Shown in pieces: positions 5,974 through 26,771 of a DNA stretch of 42,694 nt. The DNA is taken from the NCBI GenBank assembly GCA_903923905.1, contig CAIXZH010000031.1:1-42694 (forward strand). The letters are read 5' to 3'. The stretch comes from an uncultured Bacteroidia bacterium. Its GTDB lineage: Bacteria; Bacteroidota; Bacteroidia; Bacteroidales; Prolixibacteraceae. Each line of letters starts with the position of its first letter. Positions within the stretch are counted from its first letter, which is position 1. The translations under genes were made by a program, and so were the position numbers. A model generated the notes under the pieces. That model saw only the letters and a list, made by a program, of their open reading frames with translations, was not told where the DNA came from and searched no databases.

Positions 5974-6888
5974 ATGGATTACCCTCTTGTATCAATTATT
6001 ACAGTCAATTTCGATCATCCCGAAGTTACATGTGCATTGCTCGAATCTCTGCAGCATATCACCTACCCCAAAATTGAGGCAATTGTAGTTGATAATGCAT
6101 CTCCAAACGACGACCCAGCAATCATCACTCAGTCGTTTCCTGATGTGAAATTTATTCAAAGCACAATAAATCTTGGTTTTGCAGGAGGGAATAATCTTGG
6201 CATCCGTCAGGCAAAGGGGAAATATATCCTATTGTTAAATAATGATACGGAAGTTGATTCGGGTTTTCTGGAACCACTTGTTACCAAACTCGAATCAAAC
6301 AATAAAATTGGTGCTGTAAGTCCTAAAATTAAGTTTTATTATCAACCTGACACAATTCAATTTGCAGGTCAGGCTCCTATGAATCCTTATACCATGAGAA
6401 GTTTCGGATTTGGTCATGGGGCAAAGGATACCGGACAGTTTAATCGGGATACTCCAACCTCATTTGTCCATGGTGCTGCAATGATGATACCAATGGATTT
6501 AATAAAAAAAGTGGGATTAATGGCAGAAACTTATTTTCTCTACTATGAGGAACTGGATTGGGGAGCAAGAATTATAGCAGGTGGTTATCAGCTTTGGTAC
6601 GTTCATGATTCCACCATATTGCATAAAGAGTCAATGTCGACCGGTAAGTTTTCACCTTTTAAAACTTACTATATGAACAGATCACGAATATTGTACCTTA
6701 GACGGAACGTGAAAGGGTTTACATTTTTCGTTGCCTTTCTCTATCAACTTTTTATTGCAATTCCAAAGAACTGTCTGACCTTCCTGTTAAAGAGAGAATA
6801 CGGACATTTTAAGGCTTATTGCAAAGCTATAATATGGCATACTAAAAACCTGTTTAGCAATAATATACATATTAATCCAGTATTGTAA
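5974..6888 (+). CDS. GT2 glycosyltransferase, rhamnosyltransferase-like
   Basis: A 304-residue GT-A fold enzyme. It shows the N-terminal SIITVNF strand, VVDNASPND at about 38-46, NLGFAGGNNLGI (about 66-77) and LLLNNDTEVD with the metal-binding Asp (about 87-96). This set is typical of the WbbL/RfbF-like branch of family GT2, where rhamnosyltransferases are common. The GARIIAGGYQLWY segment matches the acceptor-side region. A hydrophobic stretch at about 250-270 suggests membrane association. It would add one sugar to the lipid-linked repeat on the cytosolic face. The rhamnose assignment is an inference, weakly supported by rfbD in the same locus. Confidence 0.8.
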   Translation: MDYPLVSIITVNFDHPEVTCALLESLQHITYPKIEAIVVDNASPNDDPAIITQSFPDVKFIQSTINLGFAGGNNLGIRQAKGKYILLLNNDTEVDSGFLEPLVTKLESNNKIGAVSPKIKFYYQPDTIQFAGQAPMNPYTMRSFGFGHGAKDTGQFNRDTPTSFVHGAAMMIPMDLIKKVGLMAETYFLYYEELDWGARIIAGGYQLWYVHDSTILHKESMSTGKFSPFKTYYMNRSRILYLRRNVKGFTFFVAFLYQLFIAIPKNCLTFLLKREYGHFKAYCKAIIWHTKNLFSNNIHINPVL

Positions 6889-6912: not shown

Positions 6913-8127
6913 ATGAATCAAATATTGCAATCAAGTTATTTTTTTATACAAGCTTTTTTTTGTATAGTATTATTATTTCCATCACTCTATATTTTTGTGT
7001 TTGCATTTGCAGGATTATTTTACAGACAAAAATCCTATGCAGATCAACCTGACCTACGAAAAATGGTTGTTTTGATTCCCGGTTACAAGGAGGATGAAGT
7101 AATTGTCGAAGTTGCCAGGGAAGCTCTTCGGCAAGATTATCCAAATGAGTTGTTTGATGTTGTTATTATTGCAGATTCTTTTCAGCCAGACACCATTTTA
7201 AAACTTAATGAATTGCCAATCATTGTATTAGAGGTAATGTTTGACAAAAGTACCAAGTCTAAAGCTTTAAATAGAGCGATGTCACAACTATCTGATGATT
7301 ATGATATTGCCGTTGTACTTGATGCAGATAATATCATGGCGACAGATTTTTTGTCGAAAATTAATTCCACGTTTGAACATCATTATCTGGCGGTACAGGG
7401 CCATCGCACTGCTAAAAATGTGAATACTCACCTTGCAATACTCGATGCCGTAAGTGAAGAGATTAACAATCATATTTTCCGTAAAGGACATCGGGTATTA
7501 GGCCTTTCTTCTGCAATTATAGGTTCAGGAATGGCATTTAAGTACGATTATTTCAAGAATCTGATGTCATCGGTTACGGCTATTGGGGGATTTGACAAGG
7601 AAATTGAGCTGAAGATGCTTAAAGACAGACACAAAATTGAATATCTCGACGATGCCCTGGTTTACGATGAGAAAGTGCAGAAAGCCGAAGTTTTTGCCAA
7701 CCAACGCCGGCGTTGGCTGTCAGCCCAACTACACTATTTCAAACTCGATTTTGGCTCATCACTTAAGGCGCTGATTACCAAAGGAAATGTTGATTATTTT
7801 GATAAAGCAATACAATTTATTCAACCTCCCCGAATTTTGCTATTGGGAGCAGTTCTGTTTCTGGGAACATTTTTTTTCCTATTTAATCTGGCTTTTGAAA
7901 GTGGCGGACTATTTAATACCGTGTGGATATTAATTGCGGTATTTTGTGTGCTAGCATTTTTATTTTCAATTCCAGCAAATTTTTACAACTTATCGACACT
8001 AAAAGCATTAGCAACTCTCCCAAAAGGGATGGTCCTTATGCTTGGCTCCTTACTTAAAATAAAGGGAGCTAACAAACAGTTTATTCATACCCAACATAGT
8101 GCACTTAAAACTCCATCAAATAAATAG
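6913..8127 (+). CDS. Membrane GT2 glycosyltransferase (cellulose/chitin-synthase-like)
   Basis: A 404-residue protein with an N-terminal membrane helix (about 10-35), a cytosolic GT-A domain and C-terminal helices (about 308-330 and 335-360). The visible motifs are VVLIPGYKED, DAD (in VLDADN), a GSGMAFK loop, GGFDKEIELKM and QRRRW (the family's QxxRW motif). This is the layout of processive or membrane-bound GT2 enzymes of the BcsA/NodC type, though short for a synthase. It could start the repeat unit or add a beta-linked sugar. It starts 24 nt after the preceding GT2 gene, and its stop lies 27 nt before the histidine kinase, so co-transcription is likely. Confidence 0.8.
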   Translation: MNQILQSSYFFIQAFFCIVLLFPSLYIFVFAFAGLFYRQKSYADQPDLRKMVVLIPGYKEDEVIVEVAREALRQDYPNELFDVVIIADSFQPDTILKLNELPIIVLEVMFDKSTKSKALNRAMSQLSDDYDIAVVLDADNIMATDFLSKINSTFEHHYLAVQGHRTAKNVNTHLAILDAVSEEINNHIFRKGHRVLGLSSAIIGSGMAFKYDYFKNLMSSVTAIGGFDKEIELKMLKDRHKIEYLDDALVYDEKVQKAEVFANQRRRWLSAQLHYFKLDFGSSLKALITKGNVDYFDKAIQFIQPPRILLLGAVLFLGTFFFLFNLAFESGGLFNTVWILIAVFCVLAFLFSIPANFYNLSTLKALATLPKGMVLMLGSLLKIKGANKQFIHTQHSALKTPSNK

Positions 8128-11346: not shown

Positions 11347-12504
11347 ATGAAAATAGGTATCGAAGGACAACGTCTTTTTCGCAAAAAAAAGCATGGAATG
11401 GATATGGTTGCACTCGAATTGATCCGAAATCTGCAGGAAATAGATCATGAAAATGAGTATGTTATTTTTGTTAAGCCAGATACTGACGATACAGTTCTCA
11501 AGCAAACAGATAATTTCAGGATTGTTCAACTTAAAGGTGGATTTTATCCGTTTTGGGAGCAATTCGCCCTGCCTCGTGCTGCAAGAAAAGAGGGATGTGA
11601 ATTACTTCATTGCACCAGTAACACTGCACCTGTTAATACCAAAATACCTTTGATTGTTACGCTCCATGATATTATTTATATGGAAAGCAGTTACCTGAAA
11701 ATTCTTCGGGGAAGCGGTACTCTCTATCAAAAAACAGGAAATATTTATCGCCGTCTGGTCATTCCACGAATCCTTAAAACGAGCAGAAAAATAATTACCG
11801 TTTCCAATTTTGAGAAGAACAGAATCGCCCATTTTTTTGGAATCGCCGGAGACAATCGGTTAACTGCGATTTATAATGGGGTAAGTGAGCACTTTAAACC
11901 CGTTACAGATCTGTCAGAATTGGATCGGGTCAGCGTTAAATATAAGCTTCCTGAACATTTTTTCTTTTTTCTGGGCAACACTGATCCAAAAAAAAATACA
12001 AAAGGAACTTTAAAAGCATTTTCTGATTTTCTTAAATTAACAGGCAGTAACTATCATTTGGTAATGCTCGATTACGATCTTGCAGAACTGGAAAAACTGC
12101 TTACCGAAATAGGGGATAAATCACTGATTAATAGAATAATACTGACAGGATATGTGACCAATACCGATCTGCCGGCAATTTATAGCCAATGTGAAGTATT
12201 TCTCTATCCTTCACTTCGCGAAAGTTTTGGAATTCCAATGCTCGAAGCGATGGCCTGCGGTGTGCCGGTTATTACGTCAAATACCTCATCTATGCCCGAA
12301 ATTGCAGGCAATGGTGCATTCATCATAGATCCATTCAAACCTGATGAAATTACAGAGGCGTTGATTAAACTATTGGAAGATACGGACCTAAGGACCAAAT
12401 TGATCAGCAACGGATATGAACAGGCTGCCCGCTTTTCGTGGAAAGCTATGGCACAAAATGTTCTTCAGGTCTACCGAGAAACGGGAATGAACAATAAATC
12501 TTAG
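11347..12504 (+). CDS. GT4 glycosyltransferase
   Basis: A 385-residue GT-B fold retaining enzyme. It starts with MKIGIEGQRLFRKK and carries YNGVSEHF at the domain junction, the FLGNTDPKKN nucleotide-sugar loop start, and the ExFGxxxLE signature (RESFGIPMLEAMACG, about 295-309) near the C-terminus. Close family members are often mannosyl- or rhamnosyltransferases; the donor is not readable. It follows the hybrid kinase after 63 nt and precedes a second GT-B enzyme by 11 nt. Confidence 0.85.
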   Translation: MKIGIEGQRLFRKKKHGMDMVALELIRNLQEIDHENEYVIFVKPDTDDTVLKQTDNFRIVQLKGGFYPFWEQFALPRAARKEGCELLHCTSNTAPVNTKIPLIVTLHDIIYMESSYLKILRGSGTLYQKTGNIYRRLVIPRILKTSRKIITVSNFEKNRIAHFFGIAGDNRLTAIYNGVSEHFKPVTDLSELDRVSVKYKLPEHFFFFLGNTDPKKNTKGTLKAFSDFLKLTGSNYHLVMLDYDLAELEKLLTEIGDKSLINRIILTGYVTNTDLPAIYSQCEVFLYPSLRESFGIPMLEAMACGVPVITSNTSSMPEIAGNGAFIIDPFKPDEITEALIKLLEDTDLRTKLISNGYEQAARFSWKAMAQNVLQVYRETGMNNKS

Positions 12505-12515: not shown

Positions 12516-13706
12516 ATGATACAAAACCGGGATATAATTATAATTGGAATTCAGGCATGGGATATCGAGATTGGAAGCAACTGTAAAAACATCGCCGAAG
12601 AATTCGCAAAGAAAAACCGTATTCTTTATGTTAATTCTGCGTTAGACCGGTTTTCAATGTACCGTCACAGAGCACTTGACAAAATCAGGAAACGGATCGA
12701 TATTGTCAAAAATGGTCAGCCTGAACTTCATCAGATTTCCACAAATCTGTGGAATCTTTATCCTTCATGCCTCATTGAATCAATCAATTGGATTAAATAT
12801 CCAAAATTATTTGACTGGATAAACCGAATTAATAACAATCGGTTTGCAAAACAAATTTCCTGGGCTATTGAAAAACTTGGTTTTAAGAATTATCTTATTT
12901 TCAATGACAGTGATATGTTCCGAAGTTTTTACCTCAAAGAACTCTTGAATCCTCAAATTTATATTTATTATACCCGCGACAATCTTATTGCTGTTGACTA
13001 CTGGAAGAAACATGGAATTCGGCTTGAAGCTCTGCATATGAAAAAAGCAGACCTTGTAGTAGCAAACTCGACTTATCTCGCAATGCTCGCGCAAAAGCAC
13101 AACCCCAATTCATTCTATGTCGGACAGGGTTGCGATGTGAGTTTATTCGACAGCCGGTTAGTGACGATTATCCCTCCTGATATTCAATCTATTTCAAAAC
13201 CAATCATAGGTTATATCGGGGCGCTGTTATCTCTCAGGCTTGATCTTAAAGTTCTTGAATACATCGCCGAAAACAGGCCTGAATGGAGTGTGGTACTTGT
13301 TGGTCCTGAAGACGATACCTTTAAATCAAGCCGATTGCATCAGTTGTCAAACGTTCATTTTTTGGGAAATAAAAAGGGAGATGAACTCCCTTCCTATCTT
13401 AATCACTTTGATGTTGCAATTAATCCCCAGGTATTAAGCCCCGTAACGATTGGAAATTATCCCAGAAAAATTGATGAGTACCTGGCAATGGGTAAACCAA
13501 CTGTAGCTACTAAAACAGAGGCAATGAGCGTGTTTAAAGACTACACGTATCTGGCTGAAAATAAAGATGATTACATTACATTTATTGAACTGGCTCTTCA
13601 GGAAAACAATGAACTGATTAGCCGGCAAAGGGAGGAATTTGCACGACAACATACCTGGGAAAACAATGTACTTGAAATTTCAAATGCGATAGATTCCATG
13701 AAATAG
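12516..13706 (+). CDS. GT-B glycosyltransferase (GT1/GT4-like, TuaH-type)
   Basis: A 396-residue GT-B enzyme. The N-terminus IIIIGIQAWD..IGSN with YVNSALDR, the central IGYIGAL and VLVGPED strands, and a C-terminal NPRK-like NYPRKIDEYLAMGKPTV stretch match the glycosyltransferase group that includes TuaH of teichuronic acid synthesis. The usual ExxxxxxxE pair is less regular here than in the preceding GT4. Unusually for this genome, a good Shine-Dalgarno-like GAGGAG lies 7-8 nt before the ATG. With only 11 nt between the genes, it is clearly translated with its upstream neighbour. Confidence 0.78.
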   Translation: MIQNRDIIIIGIQAWDIEIGSNCKNIAEEFAKKNRILYVNSALDRFSMYRHRALDKIRKRIDIVKNGQPELHQISTNLWNLYPSCLIESINWIKYPKLFDWINRINNNRFAKQISWAIEKLGFKNYLIFNDSDMFRSFYLKELLNPQIYIYYTRDNLIAVDYWKKHGIRLEALHMKKADLVVANSTYLAMLAQKHNPNSFYVGQGCDVSLFDSRLVTIIPPDIQSISKPIIGYIGALLSLRLDLKVLEYIAENRPEWSVVLVGPEDDTFKSSRLHQLSNVHFLGNKKGDELPSYLNHFDVAINPQVLSPVTIGNYPRKIDEYLAMGKPTVATKTEAMSVFKDYTYLAENKDDYITFIELALQENNELISRQREEFARQHTWENNVLEISNAIDSMK

Positions 13707-13808: not shown

Positions 13809-14429
13809 ATGAGCCTTACAGAAAAAATAAAAGCAAATCCAAAACTGAAGCAATTGGTTTTAAATTGCCTGATGCCCAAAAATCAGTCAAGACCAAGGCT
13901 CTGGGTTAAATTATTCTTAAACCCATTTAAACACAAAAGGGGGAAAAATTCCAAAATTTGCAGATTTTCTCGAATTGATGTTATGCCTTTCAATGATTTT
14001 GTACTTGGAAATAACTCTACAATTGAAGATTTTTCAGTCATTAACAATGGTGTTGGAGCTGTTTTAATTGGCGATCGTACGCGGATCGGATTAAGCAACG
14101 TGATTATTGGTCCGGTAACAATAGGCAATGACGTAATGTTTGCCCAGAATATAGTACTATCAGGACTTAATCACGGATATGAAGACATTACAATTGTACC
14201 TCATAAACAACCTGTTACAAAGAAAAAGATAATTATTGAAGATGAAGTTTGGATAGGTGCCAATTCGGTTGTAGTGGCTGGAGTTACCATTGGAAAACAT
14301 TCAGTGATTGCTGCAGGCTCAATCGTCACTAAAGATATTCCTGCTTATTCTGTTGCTGCAGGTAACCCGGCCAGGTTAATCAAACAATATAATCCCGATT
14401 CAGGTATATGGGAAAGGATTCCGAAATGA
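13809..14429 (+). CDS. Hexapeptide-repeat (left-handed beta-helix) acyltransferase
   Basis: A 206-residue protein with repeated [LIV]-G-x4 turns from about residue 65 to the end (IGDRTRIG, IGPVTIGNDV, VWIGANSVV, VTIGKHSVI). It has a loop with a conserved His (LNHGYED, about 118-124) and the AAGNPARLI ending typical of WbbJ/maltose O-acetyltransferase relatives. It probably O-acetylates a sugar of the repeat unit using acetyl-CoA. The N-terminal 50 residues are basic and lack repeats. About 100 nt of gene-free sequence precede it. Confidence 0.82.
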   Translation: MSLTEKIKANPKLKQLVLNCLMPKNQSRPRLWVKLFLNPFKHKRGKNSKICRFSRIDVMPFNDFVLGNNSTIEDFSVINNGVGAVLIGDRTRIGLSNVIIGPVTIGNDVMFAQNIVLSGLNHGYEDITIVPHKQPVTKKKIIIEDEVWIGANSVVVAGVTIGKHSVIAAGSIVTKDIPAYSVAAGNPARLIKQYNPDSGIWERIPK

Positions 14430-14466: not shown

Positions 14467-15243
14467 ATGAAGAAAACAGTCACATATATTCGGTATCTAT
14501 TTGATTATCTGATGAATGGTAATTTTGGATTAATCATTCCATCTGTAAAATATGTAATAAATAAGAGTTCACATAGCAAAGACCGGATTACAAAAACCAA
14601 AATTGGTGTTTTCTTTTGCAGGAAAAACACCAATGATTTTCAATTTGCCAATTATTATTATGAGTGGGGTGTCCGAAAATATGTGCTTAATCAGAAGAAT
14701 AAATTTACAGTGTTTATTGATGGAGGTGCCGGAGTTGGGGATTACTCCATTTTACTTTCGAAGTTCAATATCCGTTGCATTGCTTTCGAACCGATGCTAA
14801 ATAATTTTAAAGTATTGCAGAAAAATCTTGAATTAAATGACATAAAATCTAAAGTTGAAGCGTTGCCATTGGGTCTGGGGGATAAAAATTTCTTGGCGCA
14901 GTTTATTTTTAATCCGGTCAACACCGGAGCATCTCACATTTCAGAGAAACCAATTATCGAGGATTCAATTGTTTGCCAGGCTGATATCCGCACTTTTGAT
15001 TCACTGTTATCTTCGCTGAAAATTGAAAAGACTGAAAAGATCTTGTTCAAACTCGATCTTGAAGGGATGGAATTGGAGGCTATTCTTGGGTCATACAATT
15101 TCATCAGCAGTTATCCATATTTGACGTTCCTGATTGAAACGAAACATTCCGGGGAAGCGTTGGTTAAGGAGGCACTGACCAAGATTGCCTCGTTCCAATT
15201 CGGAAAAGTTGACGAGTTTAATATTTTTGCAACAAAAAATTAA
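14467..15243 (+). CDS. FkbM-family methyltransferase
   Basis: A 258-residue SAM-dependent methyltransferase. The SAM-binding motif I is FIDGGAGVGDYS (about 86-97), followed by AFEPMLNNF (acidic loop), LPLGLGD, a TGASHIS segment, and KLDLEGMELEAILG (about 198-211), which is the FkbM-family signature. FkbM proteins usually O-methylate sugars or polyketides; here sugar methylation of the EPS is likely. It lies 37 nt after the acyltransferase and 25 nt before the interrupted GT2. Confidence 0.85.
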   Translation: MKKTVTYIRYLFDYLMNGNFGLIIPSVKYVINKSSHSKDRITKTKIGVFFCRKNTNDFQFANYYYEWGVRKYVLNQKNKFTVFIDGGAGVGDYSILLSKFNIRCIAFEPMLNNFKVLQKNLELNDIKSKVEALPLGLGDKNFLAQFIFNPVNTGASHISEKPIIEDSIVCQADIRTFDSLLSSLKIEKTEKILFKLDLEGMELEAILGSYNFISSYPYLTFLIETKHSGEALVKEALTKIASFQFGKVDEFNIFATKN

Positions 15244-15268: not shown

Positions 15269-16459
15269 ATGCTAGTCATTCAAGTAATATTCTGGATAAT
15301 GTTGTTTATTGTATTCTATGCTTATGTTGGCTATGGAATCCTGCTTTATCTAATTGTAAAAATTCGCAGAATATTGGGAATTGCCAAAGGATTGAAGGGA
15401 TTTCCTGAATATGAACCTGAAGTAACTTTATTTATTGCTGCCTACAATGAAAAAGACTTTGTAAGTGAAAAAATCAGAAACTCTCTGGACCTGGAATATC
15501 CGCAACATAAGCTCCACATGGTATGGGTCACCGATGGATCTGATGACGGAACACCAGATTTGTTAAAGCAATATAAAGGTGTTGAAGTACACCATTAACC
15601 GCAACGAAGCGGAAAAATCGGGGCTATGAACAGAGGTATGAAATTGGTTAAAACACCAATTGTTGTGTTCTGCGATGCAAATACCCTATTAGGTAAAGAA
15701 TCAATTCGCAGAATCGTAAATTTATTCAGTAATCCCATTGTTGGCTGCGTTTCGGGTGAAAAACGGATATTTGGAAAAGAGAAGGATGCTGCAGCCGGAG
15801 CCGGAGAAGGGCTTTACTGGAAATATGAATCAACCTTAAAAAAATGGGATGCTGAACTTTATTCTGTTGTCGGAGCTGCCGGAGAGCTGTTTGCCATTAG
15901 AACAGAATTATATCAGGAAGTTGAAAAAGATACTTTACTGGACGATTTTATCATCTCGTTAAGAGTCGCTCAAAAAGGCTATACCATACAATACGATCCA
16001 GAAGCTTATGCAATAGAAACAGCATCTGCAAACGTAAAAGAGGAACTCAAACGCAAGATCAGGATTTCTGCCGGAGGCATTCAATCAGTGGTAAGACTTG
16101 GTTCTCTGCTGAATATCTTCAAATATGGAACATTATCCTTCCAGTATATTTCACATCGGGTGCTGCGCTGGACACTCGCACCCCTTTGTTTGCTTTTTAT
16201 AATTCCAGCCGGAATAGCACTCGCTCTAAACGAAGGAATTTTTGAATTTGGATTTTACAGTGTGCTATGGTGGCTCCAGGTGCTGTTTTATTTTAGTGCC
16301 TTATTGGGTTGGTATCTCGAAAATAAATCTATCCGTGTAAAACTACTGTTCGTACCCTATTACTTTTTCATCATGAATTTATCGGTATTTCTGGGTTTTA
16401 AACGTTACTTAAAAGGCTCTCAATCAGTTAACTGGGAACGTGCCAAACGGGGAAAATAA
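15269..16459 (+). pseudogene. Membrane GT2 glycosyltransferase interrupted by an in-frame TAA
   Basis: Two pieces, 15269-15598 (109 residues) and 15626-16459 (277 residues), lie in the same reading frame, separated by TAA at 15596-15598 and nine codons. Joined, they form one normal membrane GT2 of about 396 residues. The first piece has an N-terminal helix, VTLFIAAYNE and VTDGSDDGT. The nine bridging codons read PQRSGKIGA and continue into MNRGMK, matching the conserved RxGKxxAxNR region of the family. The second piece has FCDANT (DxD-like), a DDF acidic motif, RKIRIS and three C-terminal helices. The stop therefore falls inside the catalytic domain. Loss of function is the simplest reading; restart at ATG 15626 would give only half an active site. 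A base-call error cannot be excluded. The TAA is one substitution from CAA, GAA or AAA. Confidence 0.8.
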
Positions 16460-16475
16460 TCTTCAGATTTCATAA

Positions 16476-18158
16476 ATGAATAAGTGCCGCACCATATTAT
16501 TTCTTTTGCTTTTACTTTCTTCGGTAAAATACGCAGCTGGTCAGACTAATTATACGGTTGCGCCCGATTTACTGACTATTGATGCCAAAAGTATCAGTTT
16601 TGAGAAAGTCAAGCCCGGAGACACCATTTTCTTCAGCCCAGGCAACTATGACCACCTGTTGATCAAAAATTTTCAGGGAGCCCCTGGAAATCCAATAGTT
16701 ATAATGAATGCTGGGGGGGCAGTTATTATTGATACCGATAATTATTATGGAATTTCGATTCAGAATTGCCAGTATTTAAGATTTACAGGCACAGGTGACC
16801 CTAATCAGGCTTACGGATTTCAGATCAAACGGGTTGCCAATGGTGCCGGCATGGGAATTGGTTATTTGAGTTCAGATATTGAAATTGATCATATTGCCAT
16901 TGAAAATACTTTTATTGCAGGCATATACGCCAAAACAGATCCTGACTGCACCCTGGCATCGGTGAGGGGAACTTTTACTCAGTATAATACGATAATTCAT
17001 GATAATTATATTTCCAATACAGGCAATGAAGGTTTATATGTTGGAAGTTCTGAATATTCAGGACAAATGGTTCAATGCGGTACCCAGACAGTTTTGCTAT
17101 TGCCAAGTCTGCTTGACGGTGTGAAAATTTATAATAACACAATTAAATATTCTGGTTGGGATGGGATTCAGGTAAGTTCAGCCTCCAAAAATTGTCAGAT
17201 TTATGACAATACAATCCTCTTCGACAGTCAGACAGGAACTTTAAATCAGATGTCCGGAATATTAATTGGAGGTGGAACAAAGTGTGATTGCTATAACAAT
17301 TTTATCAGCAATGGTAAGGGGGATGGTATTGATTGTCTCGGACTTGGAGGAACTAGAATATTCAATAATATTATTTTAAATGCCGGTCTTAGCTTTATTC
17401 CATCTGACAAAACCCAGATGAAACATGGGGTTTATGTGGGAGATAATTCGTTCCAGAACGACTCGGCTTTTTATATCCAGTTTAATGATATTATCAATCC
17501 AAAATCGGATGGCATCCGTTTTTCAAGCATTAAAAGTAAAAATAGTCTTATAGCATCAAATGTGATCATTAATCCGGGAAATTTCGATTATTATCAAAAT
17601 GGAAATACCAGTTTCAAAGGGATAGATTCATATGTTATGATACAGAATTCTCTGTCAGAGGTAACGCTCCAAAACAATTATATGGCCCGAAATGCCAATT
17701 CAGCGGGGTTTGCTTCTTCGAATATGCAGTCGCCCGAAGATTTTAAATTATTAGCAATTTCTCCATTGATCGACCATGCAGAAGTCGACAAATATATTAA
17801 CTTTGATTTTTCAGGTTCGCCTCGTCCTATCGGATTAGAATCAGATATTGGAGCCTTTGAGTATAATATTCTTTTACCTGTTACAAGCGAAACCGAGATC
17901 CTGGATGATGGAATAAGACTTTTACAAAATCCGGCCCATGAGTTTTTAATCTTCAGTATACCACAAATTGCAGATAATACAATTTACCTGGATATATACG
18001 ATTTAACTGGGAAAAAAATCTCACAGTTAAAAACACAATATTATTCTTCTGAAAATACCACAATTCAGGCCAGTATTTTGAATATCAGTCCCGGAATTTA
18101 TATTTACACAATACGTGCAGGTGAATTTGCAAACTCGGGAAAGTTTATAAAAAAATAA
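16476..18158 (+). CDS. T9SS-exported right-handed parallel beta-helix protein
   Basis: A 560-residue protein with a Sec signal peptide (about 1-22, hydrophobic core FLLLLLLSS, cleavage near YAAGQ). The body has many Asn-rich N-x-I/Y-N-N-x-I strands typical of pectate-lyase-like beta-helices (PbH1 repeats), for example IHDNYISNTG, KIYNNTIKYSG, QIYDNTILF. The C-terminal 80 residues form a type A T9SS sorting domain: LLQNPAHE start, a YDLTGKKI strand, SPGIYIYTI and a basic FIKK end. It should cross the outer membrane by T9SS and be released or anchored at the surface. Beta-helix proteins in EPS loci are often lyases or epimerases; no catalytic residues are recognised here. It starts 16 nt after the GT2 stop, so it is probably part of the EPS operon. 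Confidence 0.85.
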   Translation: MNKCRTILFLLLLLSSVKYAAGQTNYTVAPDLLTIDAKSISFEKVKPGDTIFFSPGNYDHLLIKNFQGAPGNPIVIMNAGGAVIIDTDNYYGISIQNCQYLRFTGTGDPNQAYGFQIKRVANGAGMGIGYLSSDIEIDHIAIENTFIAGIYAKTDPDCTLASVRGTFTQYNTIIHDNYISNTGNEGLYVGSSEYSGQMVQCGTQTVLLLPSLLDGVKIYNNTIKYSGWDGIQVSSASKNCQIYDNTILFDSQTGTLNQMSGILIGGGTKCDCYNNFISNGKGDGIDCLGLGGTRIFNNIILNAGLSFIPSDKTQMKHGVYVGDNSFQNDSAFYIQFNDIINPKSDGIRFSSIKSKNSLIASNVIINPGNFDYYQNGNTSFKGIDSYVMIQNSLSEVTLQNNYMARNANSAGFASSNMQSPEDFKLLAISPLIDHAEVDKYINFDFSGSPRPIGLESDIGAFEYNILLPVTSETEILDDGIRLLQNPAHEFLIFSIPQIADNTIYLDIYDLTGKKISQLKTQYYSSENTTIQASILNISPGIYIYTIRAGEFANSGKFIKK

Positions 18159-18266: not shown

Positions 18267-21200
18267 ATGATGGACAATTCTAAAATTACTTGTATTGTAG
18301 TCGGTGAAGGTAACCTCGCACAAAGGTGCATGGGCATTTTGAAGGAATATGATATTTCGATCCAATCACTGGTCTCAGGTGATGAATGGTTATATGATGC
18401 AAATTCTTTAGAAAGTTTTCCTAAATATCGGAATCTAAGTGATTTATCTGTTTTTGAACCCGTTGATTACATTTTTAGCATAAACAACAGTTTAATCCTT
18501 AAAAAGTCATTCACATCACTGGCAAAAATCATGGCAATCAATTACCATGATGCACCTCTCCCCCGCTATGCCGGGATGTATGCGACCAACTGGGCCATCC
18601 TAAATGGAGAAACCGAACATGGTATTTCGTGGCATGAGGTTGTGGATGAGATAGATGCAGGTGATATCGTAGCGTGTCAAACTGTTCCGGTTTTACCAAA
18701 CGATACTGCACTTTCACTCAATACCCGATGTTTTGAAGCAGCATTAAAATGTTTTGGAGAATTAATGGTTTCCATAGTCGAAAACAAATTAAATCCGGTA
18801 GCACAGAATTTAAATAGTAGAACCTACTATCCCCTGGGTGCCCGCCCTGATGCATTCGGGCTGATTACCCACGATATGGATGCAAAATCAGTGGATAGGT
18901 TAACCCGTGCGACAAATTTCACCCGCTATTATGCCAATGAATTTGCAAATCCGTTGATTTATATTCGACATGAATATTATATTGTACCCAGAACAACAGT
19001 GGTTTTTGATGAAACCGGAATTCCGGGCTATATCGTTGATTTTAAAGAGAAAAGAGGGTTTTATTGTCTTGATGGATTGGTAGTTCCTGATGTTATTTTT
19101 GATAAAAATGGATACCGTGTCAATATTAATCAACTTCTGGAGTTGGGTGAACAATTAACAATTCCCAATAAAAGCCTTACGAACAAAGCTCTCTTCCGGT
19201 TTGAGAAAATGGCCAGATTTGAACCCTACTGGAAAAAGCAACTCTCACAAATGGAGATTCTGGGCTGGCCGATTATCACCGGAATACCCAGCTCTGAAAT
19301 TTTAAAATCAAGCCTCAGTGAACATTTAATGGATCAGCTTGGAAACCTGTTTCCGGAGCACCAAATTGAGGATGTAATATTTTCGGTTTGGATGTTGTAC
19401 TTTATCCGAATTTCCGGGCAATTATCCGGTACACTGGGTTTTATATCAACAGAGTTATCAAAGTTAGAAGAAGGATTGGAAAGTTTTTTTAGTTCATGGC
19501 TTCCTCTGAATGGCACTATTGATGATTCCAATTCTGTCAATGTCGAAATCAAAAAAGTACTAACTACAATTACAAAAATTGAAAAAACTGGAATATTTGT
19601 CCGCACTACCAGAATTCGTTATCCTGAATTGAGGAAAAATTCTACTGATTTCCCAACAGTCATTCTATCAAAGGGTTCACTAAATGATCAATTACAAAAT
19701 AATAAGAGTCTAACCATCTATTTTGAAAATAATGAGTTAATCTATTCCTTGCCGTCAGATTCAAATTATTCAGGGCTTAATACGATTGCAGAAAGTTTTG
19801 AAATGTTTCTTCAAAATCTGGTTGAAACGCCTGAAGTATCTGTCAATCAGCTTGGTCTGGTCTCAGTGAAAAAATCCGAAAAGATAATAGAATCGATTAA
19901 TCACCCCTCTTGTGAACCTGTTATTGTACAGGATGTTATCGATAGTTTTATGCAGGCATCCGCAGAATTTTCGGATAAAACAGCAGTTTTTGATTCCGGG
20001 GTGTCGTACTCATATTCTTCATTTGCAAAGGATATTGAGAATTTATCGGCCCAAATTGGTGCTCAGGGCATTTTACCTGGTCAGATAGTCGCCGTCATTA
20101 TTGGTCGAAATTACAATTACTTTGTTTCAATCATGGCAATCCTGCGGTGTGGAGCATGTTTTCTTCCAATCGATCCAACAATGCCCTCGGAGCGAAAACT
20201 TTTTTTCTGTTCCGATTCTAAAACTTCACTTATTCTGACCGATGATTCAAACTTTGAATTAATTGAAAATATTCAGGTTTTAAATGTTGGAATTGCGTTG
20301 AAGACTCCTGCCGGTAGGCAATTACCTACAATCAGTTATGATCCAGACAGTTTTGCCTATATTATATATACCAGCGGGTCCACCGGAGTACCCAAAGGAG
20401 TTTTGATTTCACGGAGAGCACTGGCCAACTTTATTTCTGGTGCACTTGGATTATATCAGATAACCAGTTATGACTGTGTTTTACAGTTTTCGAGCCTGGC
20501 TTTTGATGCAAGTATTGAGGAGATATTCACCTCATTTTGTACGGGTGCTTCACTCTATTTAAGAACAGCTGAGATGCTTTTGGCAGATGAATTGCTCAGT
20601 TTTTCAATTCAACATCAAATATCAGTCTGGGATTTACCTACAGCATTCTGGAGACAAGTCATTCAGTCTGAGAAGTATATTAATGATACTTTTCCTGAAA
20701 AATTGCGAATAGTTATCATTGGCGGTGAGGCCGTTTCAACAAATGATGTTATTCTTTGGAACAAACGGGAGCCAAATCATAAACTTTTTAATACCTATGG
20801 ACCTACTGAGACAACGGTAGTTGCACTGGCTTATGAAATCAAATACGGATATATCCCTGCGACAACCGTTCCAATCGGCCAACCACTTCCGGGATACAAA
20901 CTTTATATTACAGATAATAATCGCAAAATTGTACCTGAAGGGGTTTCTGGTGAATTACTTGTTGCCGGCGACAGTCTCGCTCTGGGATATCTGAACCGGG
21001 AACCTGAGCAGAGCCGGGCCTTTATCTCATTCCTGACACCTGACAATGGTTTACAGCGCTGTTATTGTACCGGTGATTTGGTTACAGCCGGGAATGATGG
21101 CCTCATTTATTATATGGGCCGCGCGGATTCTCAGGTCAAAATCAGGGGTTATCGCGTGGAACCCGGAGAAATTGAATCGCAAATAGGATCAATGGACGGA

Positions 21201-22568
21201 GTTGAAACCTGTGTAGTGGCAGTTTATACCAACCCATCCGGAGAAAAATCTTTATATGCATTTTATACGGAGAAAGATATATCAACTAATCCACTGGCTA
21301 TTAAAGATGAATTGAAAAAGGTTCTTCCGGCATATATGGTTCCTGAAATGATCCTGAAGGTGGATAAGATCCCGTTAACCAGTAACGGGAAAATTGATAA
21401 AAAAAGTTTAATTGCCAGTGCTAAGGAGAAACTGAGCCAAACAACTCACGAAAGTGTTGAACCAACCAATGACACAGAAGCATTTGTTTTGGATATCTGG
21501 AAAAAAGTTCTTTCAGTTGAAGCAGTGGGCATCGACGATGACTTTTTTGATATGGGAGGTCATTCATTAAAAGCGGTCCAGCTGATGGCCGAAATTAAAA
21601 AACTAAAAGGGATCAACATACCACTCGCATCGTTGATCTCGAACTCCACGGTCCGCACTTTTGCCCCGTTACTTATTTCCAAAACCAAAGATGAGCTATG
21701 GCACTGCTTAGTTCCAATCCGGCCAAATGGAACAAAAACTCCTCTGTTCCTTATTCATGGTGCTGGATTAAATATTCTTCTTTATCAATCATTAACTTAC
21801 CATCTTAAACAAGACCGGCCAATATATGCATTTCAGGCCAAAGGTCTTGACGGCAAAAGTGACCTCGCCGGTAGTATTGAGGAGATGGCAGATGACTATA
21901 TCGAAGAAATCAAAAAAATACTTCCGCAGGGTCCTTATATGCTCCTGGGATTTTCACTGGGAGGATTTATTGCCTATGACATGGCCAAAAAATTGACTAA
22001 TGAGGGCAATAAAGTCATTTTCGCCGGAGTTATTGATTCATTTACCTCCATAGCCCGACATATTCAGTCTCCGGTAAAAAGCATGCTGTTTAATTTTAGA
22101 TCTGCTTTAATTAAGCCATTTTATGTTTTATGGTTATTACTGTTAGCACCCTGGAGTGAAAAACGTCAGCTTTTTCTCAACAAGTATAAAAGTCTCCGTT
22201 TCACTTTAATCTACAATCTGATTAAACTGGGTTTAATGAAAGAAAAAGAGCGAAAGATCATTATCGATGACGGAGTGCCTATGTTTTTATCTGAAAATGT
22301 GGAAATAGTTATGAGCGAGGCACTTTATAAATATCAGCTGGTCCCATCCTCCATTAAACTTGATTTGTTTAAAGCAGGAAAACCAACTTTTTATATCCCT
22401 AACCGGAAGGATTACGGGTGGAACCGATTTGCCGGCAAGGGAGTGATTGTGCATACATTACCAACTGAACATTCCAGGATTTTTGCACCTCCAAACGATA
22501 AACTGTTTGCAGAGATTCTGGATCAAAGAATAGTTGAAGTTGAAGCGGAACTGAAAAACCAAAAATGA
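18267..22568 (+). CDS. NRPS-like protein: formyltransferase - partial C - A - PCP - TE
   Basis: A 1433-residue single-module megaenzyme. Residues 1-300 resemble methionyl-tRNA/UDP-Ara4N formyltransferases, with the catalytic set Asn92-x-His94 (INYHDAPLPRYAG) and Asp130 (DEIDAGDI). Residues about 310-545 look like the second half of a condensation domain (EPYWKKQL start) with no HHxxxDG. The adenylation domain (about 555-1060) has YTSGSTGVPKG (A3), FDASIEE (A4, Asp747), NTYGPTETT (A5), YCTGD and NGKIDKK with catalytic Lys1042 (A10). The carrier domain has GGHS with Ser1100. The C-terminal type I thioesterase has GFSLGG (Ser1230), probable Asp1257 and His1402. It should load one amino acid, possibly formylate it, and release or transfer it through the TE. 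About 108 nt separate it from the beta-helix gene, and the PPTase follows with a 4-nt overlap. Product unknown. Confidence 0.9.
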   Translation: MMDNSKITCIVVGEGNLAQRCMGILKEYDISIQSLVSGDEWLYDANSLESFPKYRNLSDLSVFEPVDYIFSINNSLILKKSFTSLAKIMAINYHDAPLPRYAGMYATNWAILNGETEHGISWHEVVDEIDAGDIVACQTVPVLPNDTALSLNTRCFEAALKCFGELMVSIVENKLNPVAQNLNSRTYYPLGARPDAFGLITHDMDAKSVDRLTRATNFTRYYANEFANPLIYIRHEYYIVPRTTVVFDETGIPGYIVDFKEKRGFYCLDGLVVPDVIFDKNGYRVNINQLLELGEQLTIPNKSLTNKALFRFEKMARFEPYWKKQLSQMEILGWPIITGIPSSEILKSSLSEHLMDQLGNLFPEHQIEDVIFSVWMLYFIRISGQLSGTLGFISTELSKLEEGLESFFSSWLPLNGTIDDSNSVNVEIKKVLTTITKIEKTGIFVRTTRIRYPELRKNSTDFPTVILSKGSLNDQLQNNKSLTIYFENNELIYSLPSDSNYSGLNTIAESFEMFLQNLVETPEVSVNQLGLVSVKKSEKIIESINHPSCEPVIVQDVIDSFMQASAEFSDKTAVFDSGVSYSYSSFAKDIENLSAQIGAQGILPGQIVAVIIGRNYNYFVSIMAILRCGACFLPIDPTMPSERKLFFCSDSKTSLILTDDSNFELIENIQVLNVGIALKTPAGRQLPTISYDPDSFAYIIYTSGSTGVPKGVLISRRALANFISGALGLYQITSYDCVLQFSSLAFDASIEEIFTSFCTGASLYLRTAEMLLADELLSFSIQHQISVWDLPTAFWRQVIQSEKYINDTFPEKLRIVIIGGEAVSTNDVILWNKREPNHKLFNTYGPTETTVVALAYEIKYGYIPATTVPIGQPLPGYKLYITDNNRKIVPEGVSGELLVAGDSLALGYLNREPEQSRAFISFLTPDNGLQRCYCTGDLVTAGNDGLIYYMGRADSQVKIRGYRVEPGEIESQIGSMDGVETCVVAVYTNPSGEKSLYAFYTEKDISTNPLAIKDELKKVLPAYMVPEMILKVDKIPLTSNGKIDKKSLIASAKEKLSQTTHESVEPTNDTEAFVLDIWKKVLSVEAVGIDDDFFDMGGHSLKAVQLMAEIKKLKGINIPLASLISNSTVRTFAPLLISKTKDELWHCLVPIRPNGTKTPLFLIHGAGLNILLYQSLTYHLKQDRPIYAFQAKGLDGKSDLAGSIEEMADDYIEEIKKILPQGPYMLLGFSLGGFIAYDMAKKLTNEGNKVIFAGVIDSFTSIARHIQSPVKSMLFNFRSALIKPFYVLWLLLLAPWSEKRQLFLNKYKSLRFTLIYNLIKLGLMKEKERKIIIDDGVPMFLSENVEIVMSEALYKYQLVPSSIKLDLFKAGKPTFYIPNRKDYGWNRFAGKGVIVHTLPTEHSRIFAPPNDKLFAEILDQRIVEVEAELKNQK

Positions 22569-23242
22569 ACTGGGAAAAGTCAGAAAATATCGCTGAAATC
22601 ATCAGGGTAAAGGATTGTCTGCTGGTTCTTTACGGGACAAGTGCCTGTGCCAATACTCTGCCTGTTATCGAAATCCTTTCTCCTGACGAAATAAGGTATT
22701 CAGAAAGGTTAAAGAATGATCGGCAAAAAGGGACATGGCTATCCTGCAGGTCAACATTACGCCAGATTATGGGATCAGTTCTGAATTTAAACCCTGCAGA
22801 GATTGAATTTAAAAAAGGGAGATTTGGCAAACTTTATGTGGCTGGTTCTAATTTATTTTTTAATGTCAGTCATTCAAGGTCAGCCTTCCTGATCGGTTTC
22901 AATTCAGATGGAAGAATAGGAATCGATATCGAACTGCTGAATGGTTCGGAAGATTTGCCCCTGCTGGTTAGCTATGCTTTTTCTGTAGTCGAATCCAACT
23001 ATTGTCAAAATGGAGCAAACCTGGTCCGTTTTGTTGAAACCTGGACACTGAAGGAGGCATTTCTAAAGGCAACAGGAGTTGGTCTTTTAGATCAGCTAAG
23101 CGGTATTACAGTATTGGGAGGTCTTAAAAATGAGATTACGCAGCATCATTTAAATCACAAATCGTTTGTTTGTCCCAATGGGGAATTCGGAAGCATCGTA
23201 TACAGGAATAAAAAAAAGATCAGGTTCATTCAGATGAGCTGA
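22565..23242 (+). CDS. Sfp-type 4'-phosphopantetheinyl transferase
   Basis: A 225-residue PPTase that would attach the phosphopantetheine arm to Ser1100 of the NRPS-like protein. Mg-binding residues are visible in GIDIE (Asp121, Glu123) and WTLKEAFLKATG (Trp160, Lys163, Glu164), and FNVSHS is the family's substrate-side His motif. The length is normal for the Sfp group. The ATG overlaps the NRPS TGA (ATGA), so the two are translationally coupled and this enzyme is almost certainly dedicated to that carrier domain. Confidence 0.92.
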   Translation: MNWEKSENIAEIIRVKDCLLVLYGTSACANTLPVIEILSPDEIRYSERLKNDRQKGTWLSCRSTLRQIMGSVLNLNPAEIEFKKGRFGKLYVAGSNLFFNVSHSRSAFLIGFNSDGRIGIDIELLNGSEDLPLLVSYAFSVVESNYCQNGANLVRFVETWTLKEAFLKATGVGLLDQLSGITVLGGLKNEITQHHLNHKSFVCPNGEFGSIVYRNKKKIRFIQMS

Positions 23243-23377: not shown

Positions 23378-24703
23378 ATGAAAGTCGCAATTGTAGGAAG
23401 TGGATACGTAGGTCTTGTAACCGGAACTTGCTTCGCTGAAGTAGGGATTGAAGTAATGTGTGTTGACGTCGACACCCGAAAAATAGAGAATTTGAAAAAC
23501 GGAATTATTCCAATTTATGAGCCGGGCCTTGAAGATATGGTTCACCGGAACATGAAAAAAGGAAGATTACAGTTTACAACGAATATCTCTGAAGCTCTGG
23601 TAGATTGCGAAGTGTTGTTTACTGCTGTAGGAACACCTCCTGACAAAGATGGAAGTGCTGATCTTCAGTACGTTTTAAGTGTAGCCCGTGATTGTGGCAG
23701 AAACATGAAAGACTACCTGTTGATCGTGACTAAAAGTACAGTTCCTGTGGGTACTGCTCAAAAAGTAAGACAGGCATTACAGGAAGAACTGGATAAAAGA
23801 GGTGTGAATATCCCCTTTGATGTGGCATCAAATCCTGAGTTTTTAAAAGAAGGCGCGGCTATTGACGATTTTCTGAAACCCGATCGCATCGTGGTTGGTC
23901 TCGATTCTCCGCGGGCCGAAGAGCTGATGAAAAGCCTCTATAAACCGTTTACTTTGAATGGACATCCAATTATTTTCATGGATATTACCTCCGCTGAAAT
24001 GACTAAATATGCTGCAAATTCAATGCTGGCCACCAAGATCAGTTTTATGAACGATATCGCCAATCTGTGCGAGATTGTTGGTGCTGACATTAATATGGTT
24101 CGTAAAGGAATTGGATCTGATTCAAGAATAGGAAATAAGTTTATTTATCCCGGGATCGGTTATGGCGGATCTTGTTTCCCCAAAGATGTAAAAGCATTGA
24201 TACATACCGCGGAAGATTTTGATTACGAATTAAGGGTTCTTAAGGCGGTAGAGGCAGTCAACATGGATCAGAAATCAGTGCTTTACAATAAAATAATGAA
24301 GTACTTCAAAGGTGATATAAATGGTAAAACTGTGGCTATCTGGGGATTATCCTTTAAACCTCAAACCGATGATATGCGTGAAGCTCCTTCACTGGTAATT
24401 ATAAAGAAATTACTGGACGCCGGTGCTATGGTTAAGGTGTATGACCCCGTTGCCATGAAAGAGGCAAAACACACCCTGGGCGAAACCGTCACCTACGCAG
24501 AAGATCAGTATGAAGCACTGATCGATGCCGATTGTCTGCTTCTGGTTACAGAATGGCCCGAATTTAAGGTTCCAAATTTCAATATTGTTAAAAAATTACT
24601 AAATGCTCCGGTTATTTTCGACGGCAGAAATATCTACGAAATTGAAGAAATGAAACGCAAAGGGTTTGACTACTTCTGCATCGGAATTGATACAACCAAA
24701 TAA
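23378..24703 (+). CDS. ugd: UDP-glucose 6-dehydrogenase
   Basis: A 441-residue enzyme that oxidises UDP-glucose to UDP-glucuronate with two NAD+. It has the N-terminal Rossmann motif [15 protein letters not shown] and STVPVGT loops, NPEFLKEG, and the catalytic Cys266 in [13 protein letters not shown]. The C-terminal domain has [17 protein letters not shown]. Length and motifs are complete. UDP-GlcA would feed the EPS directly or pass to the decarboxylase encoded next. Confidence 0.96.
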
Positions 24704-24779: not shown

Positions 24780-25718
24780 ATGATTAGAAAAAAGGTATTA
24801 GTTACCGGAGGAGCCGGGTTTGTTGGATCACATCTTTGTGACCGGCTTCTGAAGGAGGGAAATGAAGTAGTTTGTCTGGATAATTACTTCACCGGGCAAA
24901 AGCAAAACATTGTTCATTTGCTGCCTAATCCGTTCTTTGAATTGATTAGGCATGATGTGACCATGCCATTCTTTATCGAAGTAGATGAAATCTTCAATCT
25001 GGCATGCCCTGCCTCACCTGTTCATTATCAGTATAATGCCATCAAGACGATGAAAACCTCGGTGATGGGGGCCATTAACATGCTGGGACTTGCCAAACGG
25101 ATAAGAGCGAAGATTTTACAGGCTTCTACCAGTGAAGTTTATGGTGATCCCCAAATCCATCCACAAATTGAAAGTTATTGGGGACACGTAAACCCGATTG
25201 GTGAGCGGTCATGTTATGATGAAGGAAAGCGATCTGCAGAGACCCTCTTCGTTAATTACCACAAACAAAATAATGTTAAAATCAAAATAATCCGGATCTT
25301 CAATACCTATGGTCCGAGGATGCATCCCCATGACGGAAGGGTGGTATCCAATTTTATCGTGCAAGCTTTACAGGGCCAGGATATAACCATTTATGGAGAC
25401 GGTCAGCAAACCCGCAGTTTTCAATACGTGGATGATCTTGTTGAAGGGATGATCCGAATGATGGCCTCGCGTGATGAATTTACTGGTCCTGTCAATATTG
25501 GCAATCCTAACGAATTTACGATACTCCAGTTGGCAGAACTGGTTATCAAACTTACCAACTCCAAATCAAAAATTATCCGGATGCCACTGCCGCCTGATGA
25601 TCCGGCACAACGCCAACCCAACATCAACTTGGCTAAAAAAGAATTGGACTGGGAACCGAAAATTCAACTCAATGAAGGGCTGATAAAAACCATTGATTAT
25701 TTTGCCTCAATTATCTGA
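24780..25718 (+). CDS. UDP-glucuronate decarboxylase (UDP-xylose synthase type)
   Basis: A 312-residue extended SDR enzyme. It has the NAD-binding [10 protein letters not shown], the characteristic [12 protein letters not shown] segment, [11 protein letters not shown], and the catalytic Tyr146-x3-Lys150 (SCYDEGKR), with [10 protein letters not shown] and the C-terminal substrate loop. These motifs are specific for the UXS group, which converts UDP-GlcA to UDP-xylose via a 4-keto intermediate. Following ugd, it implies a xylose or related pentose residue in the polymer. The ATG lies just after the hairpin at 24728-24755. Confidence 0.93.
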
Positions 25719-25860: not shown

Positions 25861-25890
25861 CTTCATCTGTTATAATTTAATAGTTTGAAA

Positions 25891-26748
25891 ATGAAAATCC
25901 TAGTAACCGGTTCAAATGGTCAGTTGGGAAATGAAATTCGGGTCCTGGCAAAAGACTACCCTGATTACGAATTCATTTATACAGATATTGATGAACTCGA
26001 TATTACTGATCCACAGAAAGTTGATTTATTTTGTGCAACCAACAAACCTCACGTGATCATAAACTGTGCAGCCTATACTGCTGTGGATAAAGCAGAATCA
26101 GATGATTCAACTGCTTATCTGATTAACGCAACTGCTGTTGAAAATCTTTCCAGATCAGCAACTGGTATAGATGCACTAATGGTTCATGTCTCAACGGACT
26201 ATGTTTTTGACGGGAAAACATGGATTCCCTATAGCGAGACCGATCAAACGAATCCACAATCTGTTTATGGAACCAGTAAACTGGCCGGGGAAGAAGCAGT
26301 TCTGCACTATGCCGGAAAGGGGATCATATTGCGGACTTCCTGGCTTTATTCAGCATTTGGAAATAACTTCGTGAAAACGATGATCAAATATGGAACTGAA
26401 CGTGAGGAACTTAAAGTGGTTTTCGACCAGGTTGGAACTCCAACATATGCCAGAGATCTTGCTAAGGTAATCCTTGACATAATACCATTGTCCATCCAAA
26501 AATCCGGAGTCAACCTGTTCCACTATTCCAACGAAGGAGTTACAAGTTGGTTCGATTTTGCCCAAACAATTATCACTTTTTCAGGCATTAATTGCAGGGT
26601 AATGCCAATCCTGACCAAAGATTATCTGGTTAGCGCTGTAAGACCATGCTTTAGTGTACTTAATAAATCAAAAATTAAAGAGACATTCAATCTTACTATC
26701 CCCTATTGGAGTGAAAGTGTGAACGATTGTATTCGGAGACTCAAATAA
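25891..26748 (+). CDS. rfbD: dTDP-4-dehydrorhamnose reductase
   Basis: A 285-residue SDR enzyme catalysing the last step of dTDP-L-rhamnose synthesis. It has GSNGQLGNEI at the NAD(P)H site, INCAAYTAVDKAE, VSTDYVFDG, and catalytic Tyr126-x3-Lys130 (VYGTSKLAGE), then RTSWLYS. The ATG at 25891 is preferred over a TTG 6 nt upstream because the family begins MKILVTG. The partner genes rfbA, rfbB and rfbC are not in the window, so they must be elsewhere, unless this copy makes a related deoxysugar. Confidence 0.93.
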   Translation: MKILVTGSNGQLGNEIRVLAKDYPDYEFIYTDIDELDITDPQKVDLFCATNKPHVIINCAAYTAVDKAESDDSTAYLINATAVENLSRSATGIDALMVHVSTDYVFDGKTWIPYSETDQTNPQSVYGTSKLAGEEAVLHYAGKGIILRTSWLYSAFGNNFVKTMIKYGTEREELKVVFDQVGTPTYARDLAKVILDIIPLSIQKSGVNLFHYSNEGVTSWFDFAQTIITFSGINCRVMPILTKDYLVSAVRPCFSVLNKSKIKETFNLTIPYWSESVNDCIRRLK

Positions 26749-26771
26749 CAAACAAATTAAATTTTAATCAT

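Follow-up and report, generated by a model that had tools for sequence, protein, structure and literature searches.

A one-module nonribosomal peptide synthetase in a Bacteroidota exopolysaccharide locus, and its possible role in decorating the polymer with an amino acid

Why should a one-module nonribosomal peptide synthetase (NRPS) with an activating enzyme of its own lie among the genes of an exopolysaccharide (EPS) locus? The question is raised by a 42,694-nucleotide stretch of DNA from an uncultured Prolixibacteraceae bacterium (assembly GCA_903923905.1, contig CAIXZH010000031.1, positions 1 to 42,694), hereafter the window, in which one gene (18267..22568; features located in this form lie on the plus strand) encodes a protein of 1,433 amino acids with formyltransferase (FT), partial condensation (C'), adenylation (A), carrier (PCP or T) and thioesterase (TE) domains, and the next gene a 4'-phosphopantetheinyl transferase (PPTase). 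A first-pass annotation had proposed that the product, one perhaps formylated amino acid, is passed to a sugar amine or uronic acid carboxyl of the EPS. In our preferred reading, to which we give about an even chance, the FT-NRPS decorates the EPS of its locus, its TE transferring an N-formyl-aminoacyl group to an EPS precursor.

Pfam matches and alignments agree on the five domains and on the catalytic residues that the first-pass annotation had named in this single chain, to which four orthologues are 61 to 69% identical over the full length. The FT catalytic domain (residues 1-205; 18267..18881) is matched by Formyl_trans_N (PF00551; residues 66-160, E 9e-18), and its N92, H94 and D130 are invariant across 34 aligned sequences. 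An AlphaFold (AF2) model of residues 1-553 (pLDDT 91) has ArnA chains as its best Foldseek matches (2bln, TMt 0.82), with no condensation domain among the top 50. An FT C-terminal subdomain (residues 206-312; 18882..19202) is assigned from model strands 230-278, which fall inside the ~310 columns aligned to ArnA and Fmt, and from PF02911 matches in relatives. The C' stretch that follows (residues 315-545; 19209..19901) corresponds to the C-terminal lobe of a condensation domain only; the window protein aligns to AusA over residues 349-1143, spanning this stretch, and PF00668 matches two homologues at profile positions 189-456 (L051) and 185-455 (L151). In the window protein itself C' is too divergent for PF00668 to match at E<=0.01, and an HH pair is absent from residues 200-555. 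As the N-lobe is missing, C' would be a structural remnant that cannot condense.

The A domain (residues 558-1050; 19938..21416) is recognized by PF00501, PF13193 and TIGR01733 (AMP-binding at residues 563-909, E 8.5e-62, plus AMP-binding_C), the PCP (21474..21686) by PF00550 (PP-binding at residues 1073-1133, E 3.5e-12) with Ser1100 present, and the TE (21687..22565) by PF00975 (Thioesterase at residues 1159-1258, E 1.9e-21) with the triad S1230, D1257 and H1402 kept. The AF2 model of the TE (pLDDT 78) matches NRPS TEs and the Pks13 TE, the latter accounting for six of the ten top Foldseek matches at 20-21% identity and TMt 0.69-0.74. The TE follows the PCP directly, and the earlier statement that no further module exists is correct for this window but not for relatives of the protein; other NRPS matches of the same genome sit on other contigs. 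Purifying selection on the NRPS is evident in the one close pair tested, the copies of genomes G009 and G020, with a ratio of nonsynonymous to synonymous substitution rates (dN/dS) of 0.11 for the full protein and, by domain, of 0.10 (FT), 0.11 (FT C-terminal part), 0.17 (C-lobe), 0.14 (A), 0.06 (PCP) and 0.06 (TE). The end of the NRPS gene overlaps the ATG of the PPTase gene (22565..23242) as ATGA, bearing out the coupling of the two that had been noted. At 225 amino acids and with an ACPS superfamily domain (PF01648, E 1.3e-11, 44.9 bits against a cut-off of 25), this PPTase is of the Sfp/HetI type; NF042922 matches it with 81.9 bits, under its 370-bit equivalog cut-off.

Pocket positions of the A domains were mapped by motif, in GrsA numbering. 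The window protein reads D-A-E-D-I-G-T-V-V, and its clade, including the more distant L053 and L054, D-A-E-D-I-G-T-V-V/I. Because this resembles the arginine code cluster D-A/V-E-D-I/V/L-G-A-V/I-T/D-K and the lysine code DGEDHGTVVK given in PMC12283262, the domain likely loads a basic amino acid of the Lys/Orn/Arg type. The same genome encodes a Pls/PosA-type NRPS (epsilon-poly-lysine synthase family; L132:9302-13180, G000:C119; TIGR02353, 612 bits) with the near-identical code D-A-E-S-I-G-T-V-I, which differs from the window protein in its C-terminal TIGR02353 region, its place on another contig and the absence of FT and TE from its Pfam scan. It also encodes a dimodular NRPS (L133:6961-14190, G000:C26) that ends in a reductase-type domain (PF07993); the open reading frame (ORF) before it is weakly PPTase-like.

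The setting of the FT-NRPS is conserved among its close orthologues. A sample of 140 genomes of the window's family (f1) contains an FT plus C' match in seven, namely the window's own, G009, G020, G078 and G031 (53-62%), and G051 and G033 (27-28%). All five close copies, counting that of the window, share one type of EPS cassette, in the order glycosyltransferase GT4b, hexapeptide acyltransferase (OAcT), in some cases an FkbM-type methyltransferase, glycosyltransferase GT2c, a beta-helix protein with a type IX secretion system (T9SS) sorting tail, FT-NRPS and PPTase, with Wzc, Wzx, Wzy and the glycosyltransferases GT2a and GT2b upstream. The G051 copy has no such EPS genes within the surrounding 20 kb, and that of G033 sits on a 5 kb contig.

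Mini-NRPSs recur at this locus beyond the FT-bearing form. Taking as marker a GT2c gene beside the beta-helix gene at an identity of at least 52% to the G078 query, we found the pair in 18 of the 140 genomes; 12 of the 30 beta-helix genomes, with remote matches (31-37%), were left out, and no NRPS was seen at the three of these that were fetched (G070, G041, G116). Genes in the fetched loci were called mechanically as the longest ORFs. An NRPS ending in a TE occupies one of two slots in 12 of the 18 marker loci, G089 being counted by synteny across a contig break. Slot 1, between the beta-helix and PPTase genes, holds the FT-NRPS in five loci, while slot 2, between the OAcT/FkbM/GT4b genes and GT2c, holds a different NRPS in seven further genomes and also in G031. 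The slot-2 protein of G031 was Pfam-scanned and is a dimodular NRPS of ~2,200 amino acids ending in a TE; those of G027, G029, G030, G084 and G089 (cut, and placed by synteny from another contig) were assigned to the same type by 67-73% identity to it. Other slot-2 architectures are C-A-T-TE (G092), C'-A-T-TE (G086) and an extra A-T-TE (G030), and G027, G029 and G030 retain the PPTase after the beta-helix gene without an FT-NRPS. The six NRPS-free marker loci are those of G081, G085, G087 and G093, with ugd directly after the beta-helix gene, and of G012 and G005; two of them (G085, G087) are cut upstream by contig ends, leaving four that are complete. Across the 18 genomes, 18 of the 29 A domains over the TIGR01733 cut-off fall inside the EPS locus, or 20 if the two of G089 are counted. 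Three NRPS-free loci (G081, G093, G005) encode a phosphoribosyltransferase-fold protein (PF00156; e.g. L148:3064-4002) near a divergent GT4b, and a similar ORF occurs in G070.

The presence of an NRPS is coupled to particular glycosyltransferase genes. Loci with an NRPS contain GT2a (12/12), GT4b at an identity of at least 70% (12/12), OAcT (10/12) and the PPTase (11/12), each of which is found in none of the six NRPS-free loci (0/4 among complete loci); the chance of 12/12 against 0/4 is 5.5e-4 without correction for relatedness. Ugd and Uxs, on the other hand, are encoded in all six NRPS-free loci too, so that the association of the NRPS with ugd/uxs anticipated by the first-pass annotation is best regarded as incidental adjacency.

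A separate pairing of a mini-NRPS with an EPS glycosyltransferase gene was found outside the window's family. The window TE, searched in 395 genomes of the class at E<=1e-30, matches 16 genomes including its own, with 21 places besides the window. Matches ranked 1-5 and 7 are single modules of the form A-PCP-TE (875-895 amino acids) beside EPS genes, and the match ranked 6 is a C-A-PCP-TE protein of a polyketide/NRPS cluster. One such A-PCP-TE protein is matched at E<=1e-200 in 41 of 251 genomes of family f4. Out of 69 matching rows we examined the 24 A-PCP-TE rows of at least 60% identity and G1083:C5, to which G774 (family f100) was added, giving 26 loci; five further rows had been covered earlier (G238:C15:117959, G238:C32, G400:C1:2302171, G502:C14 and G518:C6). 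The NRPS gene stands straight after GT2b on the same strand in 23 of the 26 loci, comprising 22 of the 24 best f4 relatives and the f100 one, which lies on a 5-kb contig with glycosyltransferase genes only. Wzc, Wzy and Wzx are all encoded within 20 kb in 21 of these 23 loci, and the remaining two lie on short contigs or next to contig ends. In some loci no recognised EPS gene follows the NRPS, while in others GT2a and GT2c do. At 14 loci with other TE relatives from the class search neither Wzx nor Wzy was seen, although L188 has a weak Wzc match and L177 and L185 have GT2a plus GT2c.

The codes of these proteins point to a different substrate from that of the window. Among 23 A-PCP-TE proteins of EPS loci, DILQLGMIW occurs in six, two are within two changes of it and 15 are three or four changes away, the commonest of the latter being DIVQFGMIY (eight). 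As DILQLGMIWK is reported in PMC12283262 for four glycine-activating domains, glycine is the likely substrate of six to eight of the 23; for the others it would be a guess. The dimodular NRPSs of f1 read DILQIGSIY (in one case DILQLGGIY) and DILQLGMV/IW.

The hexapeptide acyltransferase offers another route for the last step, in which the NRPS would only charge and formylate the amino acid, a separate acyltransferase would take it, still on the carrier or already released, to the sugar, and the role of the TE would be editing or hydrolysis. The skewed distribution of OAcT in f1, together with its presence in 17 of the 21 f4 loci having Wzc, Wzy and Wzx, would suit this scheme, but it is absent from two NRPS-bearing f1 loci and from four of the 21 f4 loci, and the cis TE keeps its triad and is strongly constrained in the pair tested (dN/dS 0.06). 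We consider this route quite improbable.

Decoration by the NRPS itself would proceed as follows. The PPTase would arm Ser1100, as expected from its family; the A domain would load one amino acid, of basic type going by the pocket code; the FT, whose catalytic residues are intact and invariant, would formylate the alpha-amine on the carrier from formyl-tetrahydrofolate; and the TE would take the formyl-aminoacyl group onto Ser1230 and hand it on to an EPS precursor in the cytoplasm, at a hydroxyl or an amine. The precursor may be a lipid-linked oligosaccharide or a sugar nucleotide, and Wzx and Wzy would then export and polymerise it. We think that the mini-NRPSs of these loci aminoacylate EPS precursors, the one in the window probably with an N-formylated basic amino acid that the TE would place on a sugar hydroxyl or amine. 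Since the amino acid is activated through its own carboxyl, and the FT would formylate its alpha-amine, the uronic acid carboxyl proposed earlier is improbable as the acceptor.

Several known systems share parts of this scheme. AlmEFG glycinylates lipid A and Dlt D-alanylates teichoic acids, both with small proteins that are separate from one another and include a transferase of membrane or lipid-A-acyltransferase-like type. Like them, the window encodes together with glycan genes an A domain and a carrier for one amino acid, presumably destined for a cell-surface glycan; unlike them, it unites these with a cis TE and an FT in one chain, accompanied by a PPTase, and does so in an EPS locus of the Wzx/Wzy type. 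DltA models match the window A domain far under their cut-off, and none of the 20 window ORFs scanned (92-27470) has a Pfam match of the DltB/DltD or AlmG type, leaving the cis TE as candidate transferase. For a cis TE of this fold that moves an acyl group from carrier to sugar, a precedent is the Pks13 TE of mycobacteria, which acylates trehalose, although Pks13 is a polyketide synthase and uses a lipid acyl chain and a free disaccharide acceptor. Trehalose mycolates are mentioned in PMC5509550, whose available passages are silent on TE transfer. The initiation module of linear gramicidin synthetase, LgrA (F-A-PCP), has an FT with the same Asn-His-Asp residues fused N-terminally to A-PCP, and LgrA chains top a PDB search with the whole window protein, the best stretch being A-PCP. 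The window protein differs in having a C-lobe between FT and A, a TE of its own directly after the PCP and no elongation module, and thus does not start a longer assembly line; its FT-C' part is nearer ArnA (E 1.6e-17) than LgrA (E 9.4e-6). The F domain of LgrA N-formylates carrier-bound valine, permitting elongation (PMC5053139).

Several observations weigh against decoration of the EPS by the NRPS. The usual reaction of a TE is hydrolysis, which would give a free small molecule, such as an N-formyl-amino acid or a derivative serving as signal or chelator, from an NRPS that merely rides in the EPS locus or is co-regulated with it. Distant relatives are in keeping with such a product. Among the best 80 of at least 510 confirmed relatives, 13 single-module FT-C'-A-PCP-TE proteins fall outside the close clade, and profiles detect no glycan gene near 11 of these; the other two have one GT4 homologue and one FkbM homologue, respectively, in the fetched stretch and no further EPS gene. 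Four of the 13 stretches are shorter than 16 kb, and across phyla the Wzx and Wzy profiles have little sensitivity, having found one and two proteins only, so that their absence there is soft evidence. L053 and L054 (~45%), the nearest proteins beyond the clade among the matches listed, carry an additional A-T-C module upstream and lack EPS genes, and three A-PCP-TE copies, two at 68% and one at 48%, stand outside EPS operons (L198, L199, L208). A phylum sample of 395 genomes adds one FT-C' match (28%), in an FT-C'-A-PCP-polyketide-synthase protein, absence in this sample being soft since only three first-look candidates were scored per genome. Despite these points we judge a free product rather unlikely, though the most serious of the alternatives, because varied NRPS architectures in 12 of the 18 f1 loci are tied to specific glycosyltransferase genes, because f4 has its separate pairing with GT2b and because no transporter family was recognized among the 20 window ORFs scanned, where Wzx rests on a homologue.

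TE phylogeny does not place the EPS-locus enzymes in one clade. In a first TE tree a 16-row clade (support 100/99) includes the non-EPS L053 and L054 and the short-contig L160; L052 (duplicate of L046), L147 16473 (fragment of L155) and L159 and L095 (truncated at the end of a contig or of the fetched stretch) had been omitted. The idea of one dedicated TE clade for EPS-locus NRPSs was given up when 21 Bacteroidota TEs were added, whereupon five label changes appeared, at least four of them forced by starred branches (long-branch rows L089, L049, L161, L072, L119, L118, L094 and L107 omitted). The NRPS label is also scattered on trees of the flanking f1 genes, with six changes (GT2c) and four (beta-helix), as for a swapped cassette; starred branches force only one and two changes, shuffles gave values as low in 500/500 and 92/500 cases, respectively, and the trees are not robust enough for gains and losses to be counted, favouring neither a single vertical gain nor swapping. 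The glycosyltransferase partners, too, point to no one acceptor sugar, GT2a and GT4b going with the NRPS in f1 and GT2b, which also occurs in NRPS-free f1 loci, in f4.

A last point concerns the window's own GT2c gene (15269..16459, identified by family comparison), which a single in-frame TAA splits into two same-frame ORFs, through pseudogene formation, recoding or assembly error; none of 29 other family places of at least 71% identity, the query's own included, has an internal stop. Decay of the locus, with the NRPS as a relic, would account for the stop, but no stop interrupts the 1,433 codons of the NRPS or the 225 of the PPTase, the catalytic residues are kept, selection between the two relatives is purifying and the stop may itself be an assembly error. 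This explanation we hold to be very improbable.

Judged from sequence, EPS use belongs to particular clades, which came to it more than once, and not to the architecture, given that the distant FT-NRPSs mostly have no glycan gene nearby by profile, that L053 and L054 lack EPS genes and that the TEs do not form one clade. The first-pass annotation had tied the F-C'-A-PCP-TE architecture as such to EPS and had named homologues mostly outside EPS loci as evidence to the contrary; that is what the wide family shows, while the close clade lies within EPS loci. Its proposal of an EPS-coupled aminoacylation with a single residue keeps the backing of the orthologues' location (5/5), the NRPSs at 12 of 18 loci, the strict glycosyltransferase coupling and the f4 pairing. 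L054 further encodes an A-PCP-C-FT-C'-A-PCP-TE protein (L054:6824-14257) with FT-C' inserted mid-chain, and the FT is therefore not always an initiation domain. Proteins of the form FT-C'-A (L061, L082, L096, L103 and similar; ~1,520-1,980 amino acids) occur in many phyla, often adjoining GT2 or GT4 genes. A luciferase-like monooxygenase lies inside the A domain in the four split-A proteins tested, the A code being glycine-like as far as the two halves are readable, and two Dolichospermum loci (L061, L064) have such a protein near Ugd, Uxs, GT4 and Wzc.

Taken with the f4 loci, these patterns suggest that mini-NRPSs were recruited more than once to decorate slime polysaccharide with amino acids. 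A broader model, which we hold tentatively and give slightly less than an even chance, is that the TE-ending mini-NRPSs of Bacteroidota (A-T-TE, C'-A-T-TE, FT-C'-A-T-TE and dimodular) are interchangeable decorators of Wzx/Wzy EPS, recruited several times, which add glycine, N-formylated basic amino acids or short peptides to the repeat unit, the NRPS code predicting the EPS chemotype. Amino acids occur on many polysaccharides of bacteria for which no attaching enzyme is known. If such NRPSs attach them, the logic of assembly lines would reach beyond secreted small molecules into biofilm polymer chemistry, pocket codes would be of help in predicting how an EPS is decorated, and the TE would catalyse the joining of amino acids to sugars. 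This question can be put to a direct test in the f4 operons, which encode an A-PCP-TE protein of ~880 amino acids right after one GT2 gene and several of which lie in single-contig genomes. Both FT-NRPS modules and the aminoacylation of glycans are known kinds, but a TE-ending mini-NRPS described as a regular component of EPS operons, or any NRPS in an EPS locus, was not found among the titles and abstract openings of open-licence literature, a body mostly exclusive of subscription journals; the available passages of PMC517821 concern a metal-scavenging NRPS, not one of the EPS type.

The remaining genes of the window uphold the EPS setting described for it and indicate a Wzx/Wzy-dependent locus. 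Upstream of the NRPS are a Wzc-like gene (92..2851; by homology only, a direct Pfam scan giving LysM only), wzx (2972..4330; no direct Pfam match, but a homologue, L134, with PF01943), wzy (4375..5844; Wzy_C), GT2a (5974..6888), GT2b (6913..8127; GT2 family by Pfam scan), GT4a (11347..12504; PF00534), the TuaH-like GT4b (12516..13706), OAcT (13809..14429; PF00132), the FkbM-type methyltransferase (14467..15243; TIGR01444) and, after GT2c, the right-handed beta-helix protein (16476..18158; PF13229, PF18962). Downstream of the PPTase, a Pfam-level scan identified Ugd (23378..24703), a Uxs-like protein (24780..25718) and RmlD (25885..26748). The locus also encodes a hybrid histidine kinase with CHASE4, GAF and two receiver domains (window 8155-11283) and a lone Hpt protein (window 26727-27119), which both recur in several relatives and perhaps form a phosphorelay for EPS.

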